This document shows positions 20,542 to 33,356 of a stretch of DNA of 34,716 nucleotides, piece after piece (position 1 is the first letter of the stretch; each line of letters begins with the position of its first letter). Below the pieces are notes generated by a model. The model ran no database searches. It saw only the letters and a list, made by a program, of their open reading frames with translations, and had not been told where the DNA came from. This DNA is from Clostridia bacterium. GTDB taxonomy: Bacteria > Bacillota > Clostridia > UBA1212. The position numbers were made by a program, and so were the translations under genes. The stretch is taken from NCBI GenBank assembly GCA_017625675.1, contig JAGAKK010000019.1:1-34716 (forward strand). Direction: 5' to 3'.

Positions 20542-21420
20542 TTACTCTCCCAATGACAAAAGATATTGTCCGTAATCGGTCATCTTAAGTTCCTCACCTA
20601 AAGCAAGCATCTGCTCTTTTGTGATAAATCCTCTTCTCCAGGCAATCTCTTCAGGGCAGGATACGTAAAAGCCCTGTCTGCTCTGCACTGTTTCAATAAA
20701 CTCCGCAGCCTTGAGCATTCCGTGAGGTGTTCCCGTGTCAAGCCACGCAAAACCTCTGCCGAAAAGCTTTACTTTCAAGGAGCCTTCCTGAAGGTAGACG
20801 TTATTCACAGCGGTAATTTCCAGTTCTCCCCTCTTTGAAGGAGTAAGAGTCTTAGAAACGTTAACGACGCTGTTTGAATAAAAATACAATCCGGGAACAA
20901 CGTAATTGGACTTAGGGTCTGTTGGCTTCTCCTCAAGGGAAACCACGTTCTTCTCGCTGTCAAATTCAACCACACCGAATTCCTGAGGATTTTTTACCGG
21001 GTATCCGAAGATAACAGCATTGACGTCGCTGTCGTTTTTAATAAGCGCCATTGCCTCGCGAAGCTTTGCAGTAAGGTCCTGACCGTAAAATACGTTGTCG
21101 CCGAGAATAAGACACACATCGTCATTACCGATAAATTCCTCACCGATAATAAACGCCTCGGCAAGCCCCTTTGGCTCTGCCTGCTCCGCATAGGAGATAG
21201 CAAGGCCGAGTCTGCTTCCGTCACCTAAAAGTTTGCGGTAATGTCCGAGGTCAGAGGGTGTGGAAATAACGAGTATATCCTTTATTCCCGCAAGCATAAG
21301 CACAGACAGAGGATAATATATCATTGGTTTATCGTAAAGCGGCAATAATTGCTTCGATATAACCTGAGTCATAGGATAAAGTCTGGTGCCCTTGCCGCCT
21401 GCAAGAATTATGCCTTTCAT
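20542..21420 (-). CDS. rfbA: Glucose-1-phosphate thymidylyltransferase
   Basis: Forms dTDP-glucose from dTTP and glucose-1-phosphate, the entry step to dTDP-rhamnose and other dTDP-deoxysugars. The 292-residue protein has the nucleotidyltransferase signature [16 protein letters not shown] (3-18), [26 protein letters not shown], and [12 protein letters not shown], all standard for RfbA/RmlA, with normal length. The ATG overlaps the rfbH stop by 4 bases (ATGA), so it is translated with the CDP-sugar genes. It is unusual that rfbB, rfbC and rfbD, the rest of the dTDP-rhamnose route, are not beside it. They may lie elsewhere, or the dTDP-glucose may feed another dTDP-sugar such as the Fuc4NAc-type donor expected for a GT56 enzyme. 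Confidence 0.96.
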
Positions 21421-22781
21421 GCCTTCAATGCCTCAACGATCTTCTTCGCCATGTAATCAATCATTTCATCAGTCATTCCGGGATATACGCCTACCCAGAA
21501 CGTATCATTCATAATGCGGTCTGTGTTCTTAAGCTCGCCAACCACGCGGTAACCCTCGCCGCTTGCACGCATCTCGTCAAAGCAAGGATGCTTGATAAGA
21601 TTTCCTGCAAAAAGCATTCTGGTCTGAACACCGTTGTTCTCAAGATACTGAACGACCTTATTTCTCTCAGTACCCTCACAGCAAGTGATAAGGAAACCGA
21701 ACCAGCTGGGGTCTGAATTTTCGCAAGCCTCGGGAAGAATGAGCTTGTCCTCAAGACCGTTTGCCTTAAGACCTTCCATAATTCCTGCCTTAAGTCTCTT
21801 GAAGTTCACCTTTCTTCTCTCAACGAATGAAGGGAATTTCTTGAGCTGAGCGCAGCCTACCGCAGCCTGCATATCAGTAGCCTTAAGGTTGTATCCGAAG
21901 TGTGAATATACGTACTTGTGATCGTATCCCAGAGGAAGCTCTCCGTACTGTCTGTCAAATCTGTGCTTGCAGATATTGTCGCAGCCGGAAGGACATACGC
22001 AGTCTCTTCCCCAGTCTCTCATAGAGCGGGCAATCTTATTAAGAAGAGGATTGTTTGTATAAACAGCGCCGCCCTCGCCCATAGTCATGTGGTGAGGAGG
22101 ATAGAAGCTGGAGGTTCCGATATCACCGATTGCGCCTGTAAACTTCTCTTCGCCGTCAATAGTATACTTAGAACCGAGAGCATCACAGTTGTCCTCAATG
22201 AGCCAGAGGTTATGCTTTTCGCAGAACGCCTTAACAGCCTTCAGGTCAAAAGGATTGCCCAATGTGTGAGCCGCCATTACAACCTTGGTCTTAGGAGAAA
22301 GAGCCTCTTCAAGCTTCTCAACGTCAATGTTGTACTGAGGAATGGTAACGTCAACGAATACGGGAACAACACCGTACTGTACTGCAGGAGCTACTGTTGT
22401 AGGGAAACCTGCTGCTACGGTAATCATTTCATCACCGGGCATAACTCTTCTGTCTCCGAGAAGAGGAGATGTGAGAGTCATAAATGCAAGAAGGTTTGCA
22501 GAAGAACCTGAGTTTACCAAGGAGCAATATTTCACTCCGAGATACTCTGCAAACTCTTTTTCAAATATATCGGTATATCTTCCTGCAGTAAGCCAGAACT
22601 CAAGAGAGCTGTCCACAAGATTTACCATCTCGTCGCTGTCGTAAACTCTGGATGCATAAGGAATTCTCTGGCCCTCTTTATAAGGAGCCTTCTTATGAAA
22701 CGTGTCGCAATATTCTTTAACTGATGCAAGGATCTGTTCCTTTGCCTGTGCTTCTGTCATATCTTTAAACAAAATAGTCAT
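21417..22781 (-). CDS. rfbH: CDP-4-keto-6-deoxy-glucose 3-dehydrase (E1, RfbH/DdhC)
   Basis: PMP- and iron-sulfur-dependent dehydrase that removes the C3 hydroxyl of CDP-4-keto-6-deoxy-D-glucose, the key step to 3,6-dideoxyhexoses. The 454-residue protein shows the aspartate-aminotransferase fold with the diagnostic change: [15 protein letters not shown] (224-238) has His (H230/H231) where aminotransferases have the PLP-binding Lys. It also has the [2Fe-2S] ligands C261, C263 and C271 (C-x-C-x7-C) with C199 as the likely fourth. Both features separate it from ordinary sugar aminotransferases. The reaction normally needs a reductase partner (E3, DdhD), which is not in this window. Overlaps both neighbours by 4 bases (ATGA at each end). 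Confidence 0.95.
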
Positions 22782-23875
22782 CCCTTTCTGTTTTTAAATT
22801 CTTCAATCTGTTTCGTCATACATTCTGCAATATCGCCTTTTGCAAGATAGCACTTAGTCCACTCAACGGTTTTTGCCACTGCAGTTCCGATATTCCAGGT
22901 AGGCTTCCAACCAAATACTCTCTTGATCTTAGAACAATCAAGCTTAAGGAAGTTCGCCTCGTGAGGGCCGCCCATATAGCGGTTTTCCCATGTAAGACCC
23001 TCCTGCCAGTTATCACAGAAGAGAGTAACTATATCCTTCGTGGTAACACAGTCGATCTCATCAGGACCTACGTTATAATATCCCTGAACGGACGCCTGCT
23101 CGTACTGCTCCTTTGCAATCATAAGATATGCAAAAACAGGCTCCAAAACGTGCTCGTAAGGTCTTGTAGAGTGAGGATTTCTCACAATGATAACCTCGCC
23201 CTTCTCAGCCGCCCTTACACAGTCAGGCACGATTCTGTCATTTGCAAAATCACCGCCGCCAATAACGTTTCCGGCTCTTGCTGTAGACACCGCAATGTCT
23301 CTCTCAGCAAAAAATGAATTTTTATAGCTGTGAGTAACAAGCTCGGAACAGGACTTGCTGTTTGAATAAGGGTCAAAGCCGTCAAGCTTCTCGTCCTCTC
23401 TGTAGCCCCACTCCCACTCGTTGTTCTGGTAAACCTTGTCCGTGGTGACGTTAAGCATAGACTTCACGCAGGGAGAAAGTCTCACGCACTCCATAATGTT
23501 CACAGTACCCATAACGTTAGTCTCGTACGTATAAACGGGATCCTTGTATGAATCACGCACGATAGGCTGAGCCGCAAGGTGCAGAACTATCTCAGGCTGA
23601 AACTCGTCAAAGCAGGCCTTAAGATGAGCAAGATCCCTTATATCTCCGATAACGGACTTACAAAGCTTATCCCCTCCGATAATCTCAAAAAGAGAGGGCT
23701 TCGTGGGAGGCTCCAATGAATAACCCATAACCTCTGCCCCTGCATCGTGCAGAACCTTAATGAGCCATGAGCCTTTGAATCCCGTGTGACCTGTAACAAG
23801 GACTTTTTTTCCTTTATAAAAACTGTAAAGTTCGTCAGCATAGCCTTTTTCTGACGCTTTAATCATTTTTTCCAT
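22778..23875 (-). CDS. rfbG: CDP-glucose 4,6-dehydratase
   Basis: NAD-dependent short-chain dehydrogenase-type enzyme turning CDP-glucose into CDP-4-keto-6-deoxyglucose. With the ATG at 23873-23875 (GGAAAGG ahead; the frame stays open 7 codons further but without a ribosome site) it has 365 residues. Seen: NAD-binding VTGHTGFKGSWL near 28-39, LHLAAQPIVRDSY, VTTDKVYQNNEW, and the active-site YSNSK (Y-x3-K). The TDKVYQN and GNVIGGGD signatures are those of CDP-glucose rather than dTDP-glucose dehydratases. The stop overlaps the rfbH start by 4 bases; the gene follows rfbF after 44 bases. Confidence 0.96.
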   Translation of the reverse strand: MEKMIKASEKGYADELYSFYKGKKVLVTGHTGFKGSWLIKVLHDAGAEVMGYSLEPPTKPSLFEIIGGDKLCKSVIGDIRDLAHLKACFDEFQPEIVLHLAAQPIVRDSYKDPVYTYETNVMGTVNIMECVRLSPCVKSMLNVTTDKVYQNNEWEWGYREDEKLDGFDPYSNSKSCSELVTHSYKNSFFAERDIAVSTARAGNVIGGGDFANDRIVPDCVRAAEKGEVIIVRNPHSTRPYEHVLEPVFAYLMIAKEQYEQASVQGYYNVGPDEIDCVTTKDIVTLFCDNWQEGLTWENRYMGGPHEANFLKLDCSKIKRVFGWKPTWNIGTAVAKTVEWTKCYLAKGDIAECMTKQIEEFKNRKG

Positions 23876-23919
23876 ATTAAATCCTTTCCAATGCACTTAT
23901 TCTGTAATACAGTAATACA

Positions 23920-24693
23920 TCAGTCCCAAGACTTCCAGGGAGCTTTTCCTGACGCCCAGAGCGCTTCAAGCTGCTGCTTGTCTCTCATAGCGTCCATACA
24001 CTGCCAGAAACCGTCGTGCTTGAATGCCATAAGCTGGCCCTGCTCTGCAACAGTTTCCAGAGGCTCCTTCTCAAAGGTAGTGGAATCACCCTCAATATAA
24101 TTGAATATCTCAGGCTCAAGAACCATAAAGCCGCCGTTAATGTAGCTTCCGTCCTCGTTCTTTTTCTCTCTGAACTGATCAATGCTGTCACCCTCGCCGA
24201 TACCGAGAACGCCAAATCTCTGTCCCGTAGTAACAGCGGTAAGCGTAGCCATTTTTCCGTGAGCCTTGTGGAACTTCACAAGCTCGTCGATATTTACGTC
24301 ACTTACGCCGTCGCCGTAGGTAAGCATAAACGTTTCATTATTTACGTATTCTTTAATTCTCTTTATTCTTCCGCCTGTCATAGTGTTAAGACCGGTCTCA
24401 ACCAGGGTAACCTTCCAGTTTTCAGACTTTGAACGGTGAATTTCCATATTGTTGTTCTGCAGGTCAAAAGTAATATCGGAATTATGCAGGAAGTAGTTTG
24501 CAAAATAATCCTTTATAACGTGACTCTTATAACCGAGACAAATAACAAACTCGTTAAAGCCGTAGTGAGAATAGTGCTTCATAATGTGCCAAAGAATAGG
24601 CATCTCTCCGATTTCGATCATCGGCTTAGGCTTAAGATGGCTCTCTTCTGAAATTCTTGTTCCGAATCCTCCGGCTAAAATTACAACTTTCAT
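23920..24693 (-). CDS. rfbF: Glucose-1-phosphate cytidylyltransferase
   Basis: Makes CDP-glucose from CTP and glucose-1-phosphate, the first step of the CDP-3,6-dideoxyhexose pathway. The 257-residue protein is of normal length and begins MKVVILAGGFGTRISEES, with KPKPMIEIGEMPILWHIM, the signature of RfbF, and TGGRIKRIKEYV further on. The ATG at 24691-24693 follows AGAGGAGA. It is the first gene of the rfbF-G-H-A-dusB operon, with a promoter upstream at 24767-24795. Confidence 0.97.
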   Translation of the reverse strand: MKVVILAGGFGTRISEESHLKPKPMIEIGEMPILWHIMKHYSHYGFNEFVICLGYKSHVIKDYFANYFLHNSDITFDLQNNNMEIHRSKSENWKVTLVETGLNTMTGGRIKRIKEYVNNETFMLTYGDGVSDVNIDELVKFHKAHGKMATLTAVTTGQRFGVLGIGEGDSIDQFREKKNEDGSYINGGFMVLEPEIFNYIEGDSTTFEKEPLETVAEQGQLMAFKHDGFWQCMDAMRDKQQLEALWASGKAPWKSWD

Positions 24694-25847: not shown

Positions 25848-26945
25848 ATGAAATTAGGTATCGTAGGACTTCCCAACGTAGGAAAAAGCACATTGTTTAA
25901 CGCACTTACCCGCTCCTCCGGAGCAGAGAGCGCCAACTACCCTTTCTGCACCATTGAGCCCAACGTAGGAATCGTTACAGTTCCCGACGAAAGACTTGAC
26001 GTATTGAAAAAAATGTACGACCCTGAAAAGGTCACCCCTGCTACCATTGAATTTCTTGACATTGCAGGACTTGTAAAGGGCGCCAGCAAGGGCGAAGGTC
26101 TCGGAAACAAATTCCTTGCCAACATCCGCGAATCAGATGCTATCATCCACGTTGTAAGATGCTTTGACGATGAAAATATTATCCACGTAAACGGAAAGGT
26201 AGACCCTGCAGGAGATACTGAAACAATTAATTTTGAGCTTATTTTCTCCGACATTGAACTTATTGACAGAAGAATCGAAAGAACCGGAAAAATGGCCAAG
26301 GGCGGCGACAAGAAAATCCTTGCGGAGGTAGAATTCTTAAAGTCCATCAAGGAGCACCTTGAAGCAGGCAACCCCGCCAGAACCATGGACCTTTCCACAG
26401 AGGAGAGAGATTACGTAAACTCACTTTTCCTTCTCACCTCAAAGCCCGTTATCTATGCGGCAAACATCTCAGAGGACGACATTGCAGAGCCCGAGGCTTG
26501 TGAATACGTAAATATACTCAGCGAGATTGCTTCAAAAGAAGGCGCTCAGATCATTACCGTCTGCAGTAAACTTGAAGAAGATACAGCAGAGCTTGATGAA
26601 GAAGAAAGAGATATGTTCTTGAGCGAGCTTGGTGTTACAGGCTCAGGTCTTGACAAGCTTATCAAGGCAAGCTATGCACTTCTCGGTCTTATCAGCTTCC
26701 TTACCGCAGGTCCCAAGGAAGTAAGAGCATGGACCATCAGCAAGGGCACGAAAGCACCCGGAGCTGCAGGAAAAATCCACTCAGATTTTGAGCGAGGCTT
26801 CATAAGAGCAGAGATAGTTGCCTACGATGACCTTATCGCCTGCGGAACTTATGCAGCAGCAAGGGACAAGGGTCTTGTACGCTCAGAGGGAAAAGAGTAC
26901 GTTATGCAGGACGGCGACATCACCCTCTTCAGATTTAACGTATAA
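25848..26945 (+). CDS. ychF: Ribosome-associated P-loop ATPase YchF (Obg family)
   Basis: Conserved Obg-family nucleotidase that binds ribosomes and modulates translation and oxidative stress responses; YchF prefers ATP to GTP. The 365-residue protein has P-loop GLPNVGKST (7-15), switch region NYPFCTIEPNVG, G3 DIAGLVKGAS, the non-canonical G4 NISE (AANISED) that explains the ATP preference, a coiled-coil insertion (about 130-200) and a C-terminal TGS domain (about 280-363, with AWTISKGTKAPGAAGKIHSDF). The ATG follows AAGGAGAAATG. It heads an operon with DUF1015 and two glycosyltransferases. Confidence 0.97.
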   Translation: MKLGIVGLPNVGKSTLFNALTRSSGAESANYPFCTIEPNVGIVTVPDERLDVLKKMYDPEKVTPATIEFLDIAGLVKGASKGEGLGNKFLANIRESDAIIHVVRCFDDENIIHVNGKVDPAGDTETINFELIFSDIELIDRRIERTGKMAKGGDKKILAEVEFLKSIKEHLEAGNPARTMDLSTEERDYVNSLFLLTSKPVIYAANISEDDIAEPEACEYVNILSEIASKEGAQIITVCSKLEEDTAELDEEERDMFLSELGVTGSGLDKLIKASYALLGLISFLTAGPKEVRAWTISKGTKAPGAAGKIHSDFERGFIRAEIVAYDDLIACGTYAAARDKGLVRSEGKEYVMQDGDITLFRFNV

Positions 26946-26983: not shown

Positions 26984-28315
26984 ATGAAGTTTAACGATAT
27001 TGCGCTTAATATTACTAATATACTTTTGCCCCGAAAAGGCATTGATATGACTAAATGGGCAGCCGTTGCCTGCGATCAATTCACTTCTCAGCCGGATTAT
27101 TGGGATGAGGCATACAAGACCGCAGAAAATGCGCCCTCCACTCTTAACCTTATGCTTCCTGAGATTTACCTTGAAGACGAGGACGTTGAGGACCGCATCA
27201 AGGTTATCAACGGCACTATGAAGGAATATCTTTCAGACGGTACTCTGGAAGAAACAGAGCCCTGTATGATCCTTATAAAAAGAGATACGAAGGCATCCCC
27301 TGTGCGCACGGGTGTCGTGGCAGCCCTTGACCTTGAAAAATACGATTTCACAAAAGGCTCCGACTCCCTTATCCGCGCAACGGAAGGCACTGTTACGGAG
27401 AGAATACCGCCCCGCATGAAGGTGAGAAAGAATGCAGACGTTGAGCTTCCCCACATAATGATATTGATTGACGACCCCCACTGCACCGCAGTTGAAAAGT
27501 TGTCAGAATACGCAGAGGCAAATAGCCTTGAGCCTGTATATGATTTTGAGATGATGATGAAGGGCGGAAGCATTACCGGCTGGAAAATCACTGATGAAAA
27601 AGTTATCAATGATTTTGCAGAAGCTCTCAGAAAGCTTGCAGCTCCTGAAGTTTTTAATAAAAAATACGGTCTTGAGGGCATCTCCCCTCTTCTCTACGCA
27701 GTAGGCGACGGAAACCACTCCCTTGCTTCTGCAAAGTGCCATTGGGAAGAGCTGAAAAAGCAGGGCGCAGCTATGGACCATCCTGCAAGGTACGCCCTTG
27801 TTGAAATCGTTAACGTCCACGATAAGGGCATCATTTTCGAGCCTATTCACAGAGTTCTTTTCGGCGTCAACGAGGAAGATTTTACGGACAGTATGCTTGG
27901 ATATTTCGGCGAAAACGCATCCTATGTGAGCACAGAGGAGCTTGACGAAAGCGCCGCAAAGGCAGACGCCTCACTTCCCTACCACACGATTCCGGTTTGC
28001 TTTGGAAAGTTTAACGGAATTATTTACATTGACAAAAAAGAGCACACCCTTGCTGTGGGCGCTATCCAGAAATTCATTGACGAATACCTTAAAGAACACC
28101 CCGAGGTAAAGATCGACTACGTTCACGGCAACGATGTTACCGCAGAGCTTGGCGGAAAAGACGGCAATGCCGGAATATTCCTTCCAGCAATGGAAAAGAG
28201 CGATCTGTTCCTCACCGTAATAAAGAACGGCTCCCTTCCCAGAAAAACATTTTCTATGGGAGAGGCCTTTGAAAAGAGATATTACGTCGAAGCAAGGAAA
28301 ATAACGGAGGGCTGA
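26984..28315 (+). CDS. DUF1015 family protein
   Basis: Member of the DUF1015 family, widespread in Clostridia, without an established reaction that I can assign. The 443-residue cytosolic protein shows the family motifs WAAVACDQFTSQPDYWDEA (about 25-43), LPEIYLEDED, and AVGDGNHSLASAKCHWE (about 242-258), the GDGNHS loop looking like a phosphate- or metal-binding site. No signal or membrane segment. The ATG follows AAAGGAG; it begins 38 bases after ychF and ends 3 bases before the glycosyltransferase, so it is co-transcribed with both. Confidence 0.88.
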   Translation: MKFNDIALNITNILLPRKGIDMTKWAAVACDQFTSQPDYWDEAYKTAENAPSTLNLMLPEIYLEDEDVEDRIKVINGTMKEYLSDGTLEETEPCMILIKRDTKASPVRTGVVAALDLEKYDFTKGSDSLIRATEGTVTERIPPRMKVRKNADVELPHIMILIDDPHCTAVEKLSEYAEANSLEPVYDFEMMMKGGSITGWKITDEKVINDFAEALRKLAAPEVFNKKYGLEGISPLLYAVGDGNHSLASAKCHWEELKKQGAAMDHPARYALVEIVNVHDKGIIFEPIHRVLFGVNEEDFTDSMLGYFGENASYVSTEELDESAAKADASLPYHTIPVCFGKFNGIIYIDKKEHTLAVGAIQKFIDEYLKEHPEVKIDYVHGNDVTAELGGKDGNAGIFLPAMEKSDLFLTVIKNGSLPRKTFSMGEAFEKRYYVEARKITEG

Positions 28316-28318
28316 CCC

Positions 28319-29545
28319 TTGAAGATACTGTATATATCTACACTTTGCGCAAAAGAAACATACAGGGAGATGTTTGGCTACAACACCGCATCCCCCAATT
28401 TTGCCGTGCAGAAATATCACAGTGTAATGACAAAGGGCCTTTCGGAAAACGGCGCAGAGGTTATCTGTGTGACGTCCCCGCCGGTCCCACGAAAAAGCAA
28501 ATCAGGTCTTTACGTAAACGTCGGGGAGAAGGAGGAAAACGGAACGAAATTCAGATATATTCCCTTCCTTAACCTTCCCGTGATAAAGAATCTTTCAGTA
28601 TACCAAAACACGAAGAAAGCGTGCTACAGGCTTTTAAAGAACAGTTTTGAAAGCGGTGAAACAGCAGGGCTTGTCCTTGACCTTCTTTGTATTTCCTCCT
28701 GCGCTGGCGCCTTGTCCGGTCTTAGAAAGTTTAACAAAAAACACAAGGCCAATTTTAAATCTGCAGGTATAGTCACGGACCTTCCCGACTACCTCGCCCA
28801 CGGCGGAGGACTTTTAGAAAAAGCTTTCAACAAATCCTTCAACAGCAGTCTTGAAAAATGTTCCTCTTACGTTTTACTTACAGAGCAAATGAACGAGCTT
28901 CTTAACAAAGCCGGCAAGCCTTATGCCATTATCGAGGGGCAGGCAGACGAAAGCACTCCCTTGCCGTCAGTTAAGGCGGATAACCCTATGGAGATAATCT
29001 GTATGTACGCAGGAAGTCTGGCGCGTATTTACGGCATTATGACCCTGGCAGAAGCCTTTAAAGAGCTTTACGAAGAAAATAAGGATGATGAAAAAATTGC
29101 AAAGGCTCGTCTTCATATTTACGGCAACGGAGAATGCCGGGAAGAGCTTATCAAAATGTCAGAAGCAACCCCTGCCGTAAAGTATTGCGGCGTGCTCTCC
29201 CCCGACGAAATCGTAGCCAAGGAACAGGGCGCCACACTTCTTATAAACCCAAGACCTGCAGGAGAAGAATACACTAAATACAGTTTTCCATCAAAGAACA
29301 TGGAGTATATGGCATCAGGCACGGCAGTTCTCACCACCGACCTCCCCGGCATGCCCGAAGAATACAATAAATACGTATATATAATTAACGACGAGTCAAT
29401 TTCCGGAATCAAAAACACTTTGAAGGAACTTCTCACATCAGATATTTCCGAGCTCCGGAATAAAGGTCTTGCCGCAAGGGACTTCGTTCTCAATAATAAA
29501 AGCGGCAAAATACAGGCAGGAAAGGTGTTGGAACTGCTGAGATGA
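28319..29545 (+). CDS. GT4-type glycosyltransferase
   Basis: Retaining GT-B glycosyltransferase, probably adding a sugar to a lipid-linked surface glycan on the inner side of the membrane. The 408-residue protein has an N-terminal Rossmann-like half and a C-terminal donor-binding half with MYAGSLARIYGIMTLAEAF, LHIYGNGECREELI, VKYCGVLSPDEI and the GT4 hallmark PSKNMEYMASGTAVLTTDLPGMPEE, where the nucleotide-sugar Glu pair usually sits. The start is TTG (28319-28321) with GGAGG 8 bases ahead, and the following KILYISTL begins the first beta strand as expected. The stop overlaps the start of the next gene by 4 bases. Donor and acceptor unknown. Confidence 0.85.
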   Translation: MKILYISTLCAKETYREMFGYNTASPNFAVQKYHSVMTKGLSENGAEVICVTSPPVPRKSKSGLYVNVGEKEENGTKFRYIPFLNLPVIKNLSVYQNTKKACYRLLKNSFESGETAGLVLDLLCISSCAGALSGLRKFNKKHKANFKSAGIVTDLPDYLAHGGGLLEKAFNKSFNSSLEKCSSYVLLTEQMNELLNKAGKPYAIIEGQADESTPLPSVKADNPMEIICMYAGSLARIYGIMTLAEAFKELYEENKDDEKIAKARLHIYGNGECREELIKMSEATPAVKYCGVLSPDEIVAKEQGATLLINPRPAGEEYTKYSFPSKNMEYMASGTAVLTTDLPGMPEEYNKYVYIINDESISGIKNTLKELLTSDISELRNKGLAARDFVLNNKSGKIQAGKVLELLR

Positions 29546-31800
29546 TTATTAACGACAATGAAAAAAAGAAAAAAATTGCAATAATACATCATTGCGGCGT
29601 TATCGGCGGCGCAGGCAGAAGTCTTTTGCAAACCGTCAATATGCTTTCCGATGAATACGACGTTACCGTATATTGTCCCGAAAACAGCGGAATGTCAGAT
29701 TTTCTCCTGCATAATAACGTAAACGTAAAGCAGTACAATTTCAGCCTCGGCTCCGTTCCCTATTACAGCGGCGGCCCAAGAATTTTGTCAAGAACCTTCT
29801 GGAAAGAGATATTTTACATTTTCAAGAATAAAAGCAAGCGGCTGGCAATGCTTCGCCAATCAAAGGCAGACGTTATAATGCTGAACTCTGTTACAGAGTC
29901 CTTTATCCTGAAGGAAATAAAGAAGCAAACTACAGCCTCTGCAGTTTGCTTTGTAAGGGAAACTCTCCCCCGCGGAAGCAAGGGATATTTTTTCAGATTG
30001 TTTAAAAAGTATTTCGAAAAGCACGGAGACGGCGTATTTTTTATTTCAGACTTTGACAGAAGAGCTTACGCCCTCAATATCTGCAATGCCGTTACAATAA
30101 AAAACACTGTTCCCGATGACTTTTTTGAGCCCTACGAGGACACGAGAGCTGAGTATCTCACAATGCTTAACGTGGAAAGAGCTCCGGAGGAAAACGACTA
30201 CTACCTTCTTTTCATGGGCGGCGACAGCCAGCTCAAGGGCTACTCCACGATATGCAAGGCAATGGAGTACCTGCCCCAGAACGTAAGGCTTCTACTTGCA
30301 GGAGGCCATATCTCTTCAAGAAACAAGCTGCTTGCTCCCATTGCCGCCAGAACTGAAGTGTTGGGAATGCTTGAGGACATAAGCAACGCATACAAGGCCT
30401 GCGACCTCGTTATCTTCCCTGCAATAAAGCCCCACCAGGGACGACCTATCTTCGAGGCAGGAGCATTCGGCAAAGCCGCAGTTGCATCAGATTTTGAGGA
30501 ACTTAAAGAAGACATACGTGACGGCGTCAACGGCGCTGTATTTATCCCCGGAGATGCAAAAGACCTTGCCCTGAAAATTTCTGAAATAATTGAAAACAAT
30601 TACAAGGGAATGACTGCGTCAGCATTAGCAGAAAACAACCGTTTGCTCAGCAAGGACAACCACAGTATTCCTGCTGTCAGAACAAATCTCAAAAGAGGTA
30701 TCGTAAATGCCATAAGCACAAAAGAAATCGAACATCTTCACATTATGACCGCCTCCAATTACGCAACAGTAGACGGATACACGAAACTCATAAACAACAA
30801 TTTCGACAACGAAAAGCACTTTTTTATAATAAGAGACACCGCAGACAACCCGAAGCACTCTCTTGAAAAGTATAAAAATATTCTTTGGCTTCCCGATGCA
30901 GAATACTCCGAGCGAGGCACACTTTTTGCATATCTTAAAAGAGCAAAAAAAATATACTGGCACTCAATGAACTGGTATTGGACCACGCAATTAAGGCTTT
31001 TGATGAAGCCTTCCATAATGAAAAAGTCCACTTGGGTTGAATGGGGCGCAGACCTCTTCGATTGGAAGCACACTGACGGAAATCCAATCACAAGGCACAT
31101 CGTCAATGCCATTCACAAAAAATGGCGCTCCTCAGTTGCCTCCGTTGTGGCAATCTTCCCCACAGACGAGAAGGTGTACAAAAATACGTTCAGTAAAAAG
31201 GTACCCGTAAAACACGCGACCTACAGCGTATATCACCACTCCCGGATAGACGAGCAGAAGCCCGAAACCCCTAAGACCTCGGACACGATAAACATTCTGG
31301 TGGGACATTCTGCCACCCCGGACTGTTATCACTTTGACGTACTTAACGCACTTGCTCAATACAAGGACGAGGATATTATGCTCTACATTCCCCTTTCCTA
31401 CGGTGACAAGGAATATGCCGAAAAGGTAAATGCAAAAGCATTGTCTATCTTCGGCACTTCAAAGGTACATTTTATTCTTGAAAATATGCCCCTTTGGGAT
31501 TACGTACATTTCCTCTGGAGCATTGACATCGGAATTTTCAAGGTATACAGACAGATTGCCCTCGGCAACATCTGCAGGCTTCTTTACATGACAAAAAAAG
31601 TATACCTCCCTGCAGGAAGCATACTTTACGATTACTATAAAGAGAATGGCACAGAAATATACGATTGCGACAAGATCTCAGAAATGTCTTTCGCAGAATT
31701 CACCAAGGCGCCGATAATGACAGAACCATCACAATGCATCAAGGACATAATGACACAAGAAAAAGTCATCGAGCAATGGCGCAACGTTTTTAACGGATAA
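29542..31800 (+). CDS. Fused GT4 + GT56 (WecF-like) bifunctional glycosyltransferase
   Basis: Two glycosyltransferase modules in one 752-residue protein. Residues about 10-385 are a GT4-type domain (IAIIHHCGVIGGAGRSLLQTV, LLFMGGDSQLKGYSTICKAM, KPHQGRPIFEAGAFGKAAVASD). Residues about 395-750 match the GT56 family, typified by E. coli WecF, TDP-Fuc4NAc:lipid II transferase: WVEWGADLFDW (WecF HIWGADLYE), INILVGHSATPDCYHFDVLNAL (WecF ILVGNSGD...), LYIPLSYGDKEYAEKV, NMPLWDYVHFL and DIGIFKVYRQIALGNI (WecF ...ARQQGIGTL). Such enzymes add a TDP-sugar to a polyprenyl-linked intermediate. It is fused to a GT4, so it would add two successive sugars. The ATG overlaps the upstream GT4 stop by 4 bases. Fusion is continuous with no frameshift. 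Sugar specificity not known. Confidence 0.85.
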   Translation: MIINDNEKKKKIAIIHHCGVIGGAGRSLLQTVNMLSDEYDVTVYCPENSGMSDFLLHNNVNVKQYNFSLGSVPYYSGGPRILSRTFWKEIFYIFKNKSKRLAMLRQSKADVIMLNSVTESFILKEIKKQTTASAVCFVRETLPRGSKGYFFRLFKKYFEKHGDGVFFISDFDRRAYALNICNAVTIKNTVPDDFFEPYEDTRAEYLTMLNVERAPEENDYYLLFMGGDSQLKGYSTICKAMEYLPQNVRLLLAGGHISSRNKLLAPIAARTEVLGMLEDISNAYKACDLVIFPAIKPHQGRPIFEAGAFGKAAVASDFEELKEDIRDGVNGAVFIPGDAKDLALKISEIIENNYKGMTASALAENNRLLSKDNHSIPAVRTNLKRGIVNAISTKEIEHLHIMTASNYATVDGYTKLINNNFDNEKHFFIIRDTADNPKHSLEKYKNILWLPDAEYSERGTLFAYLKRAKKIYWHSMNWYWTTQLRLLMKPSIMKKSTWVEWGADLFDWKHTDGNPITRHIVNAIHKKWRSSVASVVAIFPTDEKVYKNTFSKKVPVKHATYSVYHHSRIDEQKPETPKTSDTINILVGHSATPDCYHFDVLNALAQYKDEDIMLYIPLSYGDKEYAEKVNAKALSIFGTSKVHFILENMPLWDYVHFLWSIDIGIFKVYRQIALGNICRLLYMTKKVYLPAGSILYDYYKENGTEIYDCDKISEMSFAEFTKAPIMTEPSQCIKDIMTQEKVIEQWRNVFNG

Positions 31801-31803
31801 TTT

Positions 31804-31840
31804 AAAAGGTGACAGAGCCCTGCGCCCTGCCACCTTTTTT
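31804..31840 (+). terminator. Rho-independent terminator of the ychF-glycosyltransferase operon
   Basis: AAAAGGTG (31804-31811) pairs with CACCTTTTTT (31831-31840), extended by CAG/CTG; the T-run forms the 3' arm. It begins 4 bases after the stop. Confidence 0.85.
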
Positions 31841-31898: not shown

Positions 31899-33308
31899 TC
31901 ATTCTTTTCCGTTCCAGCAATAAGTACAAAGCTTGCAAGGCTCTAAACCAACTGACTCAAGCATGTCATCAAGTCGATGGTACGCAAGAGTTGTAAAATT
32001 AAGTTCCTTCCTGATAATCTCAAGCATCTCGCTGTAGTTATTACTATCAGGATTTGCATAGTCATCAAGAACCTCAGGAGTAACGTTGCCCTCGCCTTCC
32101 CTTTCAAGAATTATACGCCTTGTGATAAGGTCAAGCTCAGATTTTGAACGTGAAAAGTTTAAGTATTTACAACCGAACATTATCGGCGGACAAGCGGGTC
32201 TTATATGTACCTCTTTCGCGCCGCTGTCATACAAAAACTCCGTTGTCTCACGAAGCTGGGTGCCCCTTACAATGGAGTCATCTATCATCAAAAGCTTTTT
32301 ACCTTTTATAAGGTCATGCACGGGAATAAGCTTCATCTTCGCAATAAGGCTTCTCTGTGATTGATTAGCAGGCATAAAAGATCTGGGCCAGGTAGGAGTA
32401 TATTTGATAAAAGGCCTTGTAAACGGTATTCTCGCCTCGTTTGAGTAACCTATAGCATGGGCAATTCCGGAATCAGGAACACCGGAAACGCTGTCAGGAG
32501 ACACGTTGTCGCGCTTTGCAAGCATTCTTCCGCACTCATACCTCATCGCCTCTACGTTAACGCCCTCATAGGTGGACGTAGGATAACCGTAATACATCCA
32601 GAGAAAAGTACATATCTTCATTTCCTTTTTCGCAGGGCTCACGGTCTCCGCGCTTTCCGGCGTAATATATACGATTTCAGAAGGACCAAGTTCTTTATAA
32701 TCTCTGTATCCAAGGTTCAGGTATGCAAAGCTCTCGAACGAAGCGCAAAACGCACCGTCTTTCTTTCCGATAATAACAGGAGTTCTTCCCAAGCGGTCAC
32801 GGGCACAATAGATACCCTCTTTCGTCATCAGAAGAACGCTGAGAGAGCCGTCAACCTTTTCCTGCAAATATTTTATACCCTCCACAATGGAAGACTTCTG
32901 ATTGATAATAGCGGCACAAATTTCAGTAGGATTAATAACGCTGCCGCTCATCTCCAGAAAATGAGTATGACCGGACTTAAAGCACAGGTTAACAAGCTCC
33001 TCTGCGTTATTTATCTTTCCCACCGTGGTAATGGCAAAGCTTCCCAAGTGTGAATTAACAAGAAGCGGCTGGGGCTCAAAATCTGATATACATCCGATAC
33101 CCAGGTTACCCTCCAACTCCTCTACGTCACGTTCAAATTTCGTACGGAACGGAGAATTCTGAATATTGTGAATTGCTCTGTTAAATCCCTTTTCACCGTA
33201 AACAGCCATACCGCCGCGTCTCGTTCCCAAGTGCGAATGATAGTCTGTACCGAAAAACAGATCCCAGATACAAGATTCCTTAGATGCAACTGCAAAAAAA
33301 CCACCCAT
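31899..33308 (-). CDS. PurF-like amidophosphoribosyltransferase without glutaminase cysteine
   Basis: Homologue of PurF, which makes phosphoribosylamine from PRPP and glutamine. The 469-residue form starts at the ATG 33306-33308 (GGGAGG ahead; an upstream in-frame extension lacks a ribosome site). The phosphoribosyltransferase half is intact: LLMIDDSIVRGTQLRE (339-354) and SGVPDSGIAHAIGYS (275-289). Cys233, Cys380, Cys458 and Cys461 match the positions of the [4Fe-4S] ligands of B. subtilis PurF. The N-terminal glutaminase half is recognisable (LGTRRGGMAVYG, ARDRLGRTPVIIGKKDGAFCASFES) but begins MGGFFAV where PurF exposes Cys1 (CGVFGI), and the HNG oxyanion loop is replaced by VGKINN. It may therefore use ammonia, another amidotransferase, or a different reaction. 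Paralogues of this type occur in gut anaerobes beside ordinary PurF. Promoter 33357-33385. Confidence 0.85.
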   Translation of the reverse strand: MGGFFAVASKESCIWDLFFGTDYHSHLGTRRGGMAVYGEKGFNRAIHNIQNSPFRTKFERDVEELEGNLGIGCISDFEPQPLLVNSHLGSFAITTVGKINNAEELVNLCFKSGHTHFLEMSGSVINPTEICAAIINQKSSIVEGIKYLQEKVDGSLSVLLMTKEGIYCARDRLGRTPVIIGKKDGAFCASFESFAYLNLGYRDYKELGPSEIVYITPESAETVSPAKKEMKICTFLWMYYGYPTSTYEGVNVEAMRYECGRMLAKRDNVSPDSVSGVPDSGIAHAIGYSNEARIPFTRPFIKYTPTWPRSFMPANQSQRSLIAKMKLIPVHDLIKGKKLLMIDDSIVRGTQLRETTEFLYDSGAKEVHIRPACPPIMFGCKYLNFSRSKSELDLITRRIILEREGEGNVTPEVLDDYANPDSNNYSEMLEIIRKELNFTTLAYHRLDDMLESVGLEPCKLCTYCWNGKE

Positions 33309-33356
33309 AAATAAGAGCCTCCCAAGGGTCATATACTTTGTAATCACTACTGCAAT

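Follow-up and report, generated by a model that had tools for sequence, protein, structure and literature searches.

What is a WecF-like glycosyltransferase doing in a clostridial genome, joined to a second glycosyltransferase in a single polypeptide? The question is raised by one gene of the window, i.e., the whole 34,716-nucleotide stretch of DNA analysed here, which comes from a 1.65-Mb metagenome-assembled genome (MAG) of 76% completeness. The features concerned are as follows, g1 denoting the genus of the window, and g2 and g3 two further genera of its family.

25848..26945, + strand: ychF, encoding a GTPase (TIGR00092), with a 38-base gap after it
26984..28315, + strand: gene for a DUF1015 protein of 443 amino acids (Pfam), 3 bases 5' of GT4up
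28319..29545, + strand: GT4up, a separate GT4 glycosyltransferase of 408 amino acids with a TTG start (Pfam), preceding the fusion in g2 and g3 loci
29542..31800, + strand: fusion coding sequence, 752 amino acids with GT4 and GT56 domains (open frame, Pfam, full-length orthologues in genomes G001 and G003)
29566..30696, + strand: N-terminal GT4 domain (GT4N), residues 9-385 (PF00534/PF13692; homologue of the N-terminal part of the g2 and g3 fusions)
30430..30462, + strand: motif of the subfamily, PHQGRPIFEAG (residues 297-307), where GT4 enzymes carry E-x7-E (aligned with PglA and HepE; kept in g1, g2 and g3 homologues)
30697..30720, + strand: short junction, residues 386-393 (alignments, junction codons)
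30721..31797, + strand: C-terminal GT56 (WecF-like) domain, residues 394-752, with a predicted GT-B fold (PF07429, NF002756, AlphaFold2, Foldseek)
31033..31053, + strand: GT56 motif WVEWGAD, residues 498-504, common to WecF as WHIWGAD
31549..31572, + strand: GT56 motif RQIALGNI, residues 670-677, partly common to WecF RQQGIGTL
31804..31838, + strand: putative intrinsic terminator closing the operon (hairpin of -14.6 kcal/mol, z -4.55, then a U run)

The fusion gene begins with ATG and runs over 752 codons with zero internal stops, and its start overlaps the stop of GT4up by 4 bases. The first-pass annotation had reported both the joining of GT4 to GT56 in one frame and the overlapping second GT4 gene upstream; both observations stand, the former strengthened by the two Pfam domains and by conservation in a second genus. 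The operon ychF-DUF1015-GT4up-fusion, of which ychF is probably the first transcribed gene, probably ends at the hairpin at 31804-31838, which was absent from the output of a simple terminator scan. The DUF1015 gene also lies 5' of the glycosyltransferase cluster in G001 and G003, and 5' of a stand-alone GT56 gene in G011. A row of DUF1015, GT56 and a Stealth-family gene at locus L011 makes DUF1015 and GT56 neighbours in a second family as well. Downstream of the fusion, positions 31899-33347 (-) encode a PurF-like protein that remains under the equivalog level, scoring 181 bits with TIGR01134, for which the cut-off is 350.

The near relatives of the source genome are Oscillospiraceae SIG423, Mageeibacillus UBA1212, uncultured Ruminococcus RUG12790 and Clostridia MAGs from goat and yak rumen and roe deer colon, in agreement with its earlier description as clostridial. 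Full-length GT4N-GT56 orthologues, 54-55% identical and with the same junction, are encoded by G001 and G003, which belong to the second genus. An assembly or frameshift artefact, which might be feared in a MAG of only 76% completeness, deserves virtually no credence and is ruled out by the continuous frame and by the same fusion and junction in these independent assemblies of two other species. Between G001 and G003, dN/dS is about 0.08 for the GT4 half and 0.03 for the GT56 half, figures that are rough because dS is near 2, close to saturation. Both halves are under purifying selection.

Genomes with a PF07429 match number 9 of 391 in the Clostridia (about 2%), 7 of 398 in the phylum sample, one of these through a match below the family cut-off, and 9 of 31 in the order; all three samples contain the source genome, and G001 and G002 are counted in both the class and the order samples. 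Among the sampled genomes, GT4-GT56 fusions are confined to the family of the window, where they occur in three of nine genomes. A contig search with the single fusion protein yielded no relatives, and one with an alignment as query yielded 12 loci. The fusion is thus a real, conserved and rare combination of known enzyme types; since fused glycosyltransferases are common in general, it is only moderately surprising.

The junction hints at how the two genes were joined. The stand-alone GT56 paralogue begins MSDKKIKYLH, and its start Met falls on residue 391 of the fusion (ATA, Ile) in the alignment; the fused copies read ISTKEIEHLH or LSDTQVKYLH at this place, with ATA (window), TTA (G003) or CTT (G001) as the codon at the former start. 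The old GT56 start codon therefore seems, from these alignments, to lie inside the fusion, which fits the loss of a stop between two tandem genes. In the GT56 tree, the family sequences are well separated (support 99/98); the branching of the two g1 copies, stand-alone and fused, is supported at only 83/97-98, so that the stand-alone copy may be either the source of the fusion or a second lineage.

How close is the C-terminal half to WecF? Pfam places residues 432-684 in GT56 (PF07429, E 1.8e-17, 63.9 bits against a curated cut-off of 25) and the NCBIfam WecF equivalog model NF002756 aligns with residues 395-751, in line with the expected placement of residues 395-750 in this family. The NF002756 score of 204 bits lies under the equivalog cut-off of 457, which makes this half a homologue of WecF and not its equivalog; a further model, NF052570, gives 71.8 bits against a cut-off of 525. 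Escherichia coli WecF has the same residue at 24 positions that are kept in 80% or more of 22 GT56 sequences, and overall pairwise identity with that enzyme is 17.6%. The description of this half as WecF-like consequently holds at the level of the family and goes no further. Modelled alone with AlphaFold2, the GT56 half is predicted confidently (pLDDT 89.3), and Foldseek finds its nearest solved folds among GT-B enzymes such as BshA, PimA and PglA, whereas a sequence search of solved structures gave no match to this half. Modelled at full length, the protein is poorly predicted in its GT4 half and yields no information on domain arrangement; its top whole-length structural match (8qoy) reaches a TM of only 0.32.

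E. coli WecF is the TDP-Fuc4NAc:lipid II Fuc4NAc transferase, for which donor and acceptor are known, and makes lipid III of enterobacterial common antigen (ECA) (PMC7439462). A literature search, with subscription papers outside its coverage, returned no paper joining GT56 with WecF, nor the term PF07429. Scores below the NCBIfam equivalog cut-offs rule out a WecF equivalog and speak against membership of the ECA system. For the RmlB-WecE part of the ECA route, the DegT protein at G000:C5 has a WecE score of 132 against 435, in a genome that is 76% complete. Judged by the WecF equivalog models, the predicted glycan product is not ECA, as had been supposed from the outset.

For the function of the fusion, we lean, by a little over even, towards a bifunctional transferase that extends a polyprenyl-pyrophosphate-linked oligosaccharide by two, probably consecutive, sugars, the GT56 half adding a 4-amino-4,6-dideoxyhexose and a Wzx flippase exporting the product. 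Each half would be a separate GT-B enzyme, and the protein would have arisen when two neighbouring genes were joined end to end. On the cytoplasmic side, an initiating transferase of the PF02397 type, present in all ten genomes analysed (nine of the family plus G011), would place the first sugar on polyprenyl-pyrophosphate. GT4up and the GT4 half would then add one or more hexoses, and the GT56 half a 4-amino-4,6-dideoxyhexose of the Fuc4N or Qui4N type, probably N-acylated, as WecF does in ECA. A further transferase, GT4C, would add another sugar before a Wzx flippase (PF13440) carries the unit outward for use in a surface glycan. The consecutive steps, the acceptor, the donors and the surface-glycan product are what we infer.

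Whether the GT4 half is itself catalytic is less obvious. Its membership of GT4 is clear from Glycos_transf_1 (PF00534 at residues 215-366, E 1.8e-22; PF13692 at 221-352). The E-x7-E motif is incomplete, the second Glu being kept and the first replaced by Pro, so that the activity of GT4N is not assured; the first-pass annotation, which credited both halves with their family motifs, was right on this point for the GT56 half only. Some variation at E-x7-E is known in GT4. The place of the first Glu is occupied by P, S or A in all GT4N homologues inspected (S or A in two), and the PHQ-RP-FEAG motif is common to homologues across the family, which marks it as a subfamily trait and not as decay of the window copy. 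The missing Glu, together with faster evolution of the GT4 half (75.7% identity between G001 and G003, against 91.7% for the GT56 half), would suit a protein in which GT56 alone is catalytic and GT4N is a docking or scaffold domain holding it at the assembly complex. We regard such a role as quite improbable, given that the second Glu and the PHQ-RP-FEAG motif are kept family-wide under purifying selection, and that GT4N is fused in g3 to another partner, as would be expected of an active enzyme more than of a dock specific to GT56.

The g3 fusion belongs to a broader pattern, in which one set of enzymes (GT4up, GT4N, GT56 and GT4C) recurs across the family. The system thus has four transferase domains and not the three first counted. 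In g1, GT4up precedes GT4N-GT56 and GT4C lies elsewhere (contig C11), together with a stand-alone GT56 on C81 that is 65% identical to the fused copy and sits beside a WbqC-like gene. At L033 (7921-9728), a stand-alone GT56 and a WbqC-like gene are found amid apparent replication-origin genes, recognised by eye as gyrB, parAB, mnmE and mnmG. In g2, a sister genus, GT4up, GT4N-GT56 and GT4C are consecutive, and no second GT56 was found in g2 genomes. In g3, GT4up is followed by a fused GT4N-GT4C, the GT56 being stand-alone and elsewhere in the genome. A GT56 is present in G004, where homologues of GT4N and GT4C were not found, and no GT56 was found in G007.

The fusion partner of GT4N is therefore exchangeable between genera. 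Fusion of GT4N to two different partners is a Rosetta-stone signal that would place all these enzymes in one pathway; such reciprocal fusions (GT4N-GT56 and GT4N-GT4C) tie together, in uncultured herbivore-gut Clostridia, four transferases whose genes are scattered. The same tolerance of GT4N for either partner would fit a protein whose halves serve one glycan at non-consecutive sugars, e.g., backbone and side branch, the fusion merely equalising expression, a reading that we hold to be unlikely. Beyond the preferred model of two probably consecutive additions, it is a long shot that the family builds one surface glycan with an exchangeable module, GT4N being coupled to whichever transferase acts next and its partner setting the order of sugars and thereby the glycan type of each genus, while the 4-aminosugar is formed in the absence of RmlB.

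Which sugar the GT56 half would transfer may be approached through gene context. A strong PF13440 Wzx gene and a full-length DegT gene lie within a few kb by coordinates in all ten genomes. DesI is a TDP-4-keto-6-deoxyglucose aminotransferase, and it is the best NCBIfam match, below cut-off, of the four DegT proteins scored at such loci (L093 in G000, L094 in G002, L096 in G001 and L099 in G011), the DegT near Wzx in G004 (L117) being among those outside the scoring. A second DegT of G004 (L095), 10 kb from GT56, best matches a dTDP-4-amino-4,6-dideoxygalactose transaminase model, also below cut-off. As the Wzx-DegT cluster lies apart from the fusion in this family, the two are linked by analogy with GT56 loci outside it, 16 of 17 of which have Wzx, DegT, RmlB, ATP-grasp or PglD genes within about 1.5 kb. 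The same classes of neighbours occur at one of 14 control GT4 loci, a convenience set of weak GT4 matches; the Fisher p of 9e-7 is descriptive because the gene classes were picked once the loci had been read and part of the loci are related (the three AS21/AS22 loci do not count as independent, nor do L122 and L123). With Bacillota GT56 genes lying beside Wzx and 4-aminosugar genes, a polyprenyl-linked aminosugar glycan may reasonably be expected. The proposal of such a glycan with a TDP-aminosugar is accordingly upheld for the aminosugar by GT56 context, and not for TDP, since RmlB was not found in the source genome.

Near the fusion operon, the window also carries a nucleotide-sugar operon.

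20542..21420, - strand: RmlA, glucose-1-phosphate thymidylyltransferase (TIGR01207, 449 bits)
21417..24693, - strand: RfbH, CDP-glucose 4,6-dehydratase (RfbG) and glucose-1-phosphate cytidylyltransferase (RfbF), over the cut-offs of NF011936, TIGR02622 and TIGR02623

The rfbFGH genes, for CDP-3,6-dideoxyhexose precursors, form one operon with RmlA (20542-24693, -). The same gene order, by size and start, is seen in G003 (L098, 12079-16262), where RmlA alone was confirmed by profile. RmlA occurs in ten of ten genomes, whereas RmlB exceeds its cut-off in two, G011 and G001, in the latter on a contig of 3 kb, possibly a contaminant. No RmlB over cut-off was found in the source genome (76% complete), nor any in G002, G004, G005 and G008 (95-97% complete; G008 with 9% contamination). 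TDP-glucose thus seems to be made in this family without a recognisable 4,6-dehydratase. With RmlA everywhere but RmlB scarce, TDP-Fuc4NAc may plausibly be the donor, with CDP- or UDP-linked aminosugars as alternatives. Should the RmlB gap prove genuine, a different dehydratase would be expected to supply the aminosugar.

A donor other than a TDP-aminosugar, namely a CDP sugar (RfbFGH) or a UDP-2,4-diamino-2,4,6-trideoxy sugar, would account for the lack of RmlB in those four nearly complete GT56-bearing genomes, for RfbG-type dehydratases across the family and for rfbFGH within the window. It is possible, though we doubt it: GT56 elsewhere adjoins RmlA/RmlB and a DesI-like DegT (L044, L064, L065 and L066), RmlA is universal in the ten genomes, and the scored DegT proteins best match an enzyme that acts on a TDP sugar. 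We retain the addition of a 4-amino-4,6-dideoxyhexose by the GT56 half as the preferred reading. Through the fusion, moreover, the donor and acceptor of GT56, a family poorly studied outside enterobacteria, become accessible with a soluble protein.

Among known systems, WecF is related through a family match over the Pfam cut-off and the common W-x2-WGAD and RQ residues; WecF is a stand-alone protein, whereas the window GT56 is fused to GT4 with no ECA operon around it. PglA, HepE and PimA, GT4 enzymes of lipid-linked glycan assembly, provide the nearest solved sequences and folds and have the GT4 domain and the second Glu of E-x7-E in common with GT4N, which differs from them in the replaced first Glu and in its fusion to GT56. 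GT56 is joined to other domains elsewhere. In G251 (L049, 1282-3126), a GT56-PglD fusion lies beside an ATP-grasp gene, the partner being an acetyltransferase and not a GT4. G500 and G534 (L122 and L123) encode, also beside ATP-grasp, a 640-amino-acid protein with a C-terminal GT56 and a long Rossmann-like N extension, read by eye only and by inspection not GT4. The tandem GT4-GT4 protein of g3 has the same GT4N, the same GT4up upstream and the same length class as the window fusion, and differs in its C-terminal partner, GT4C instead of GT56. What is new here is combinatorial, a single set of transferases being fused in different pairs.
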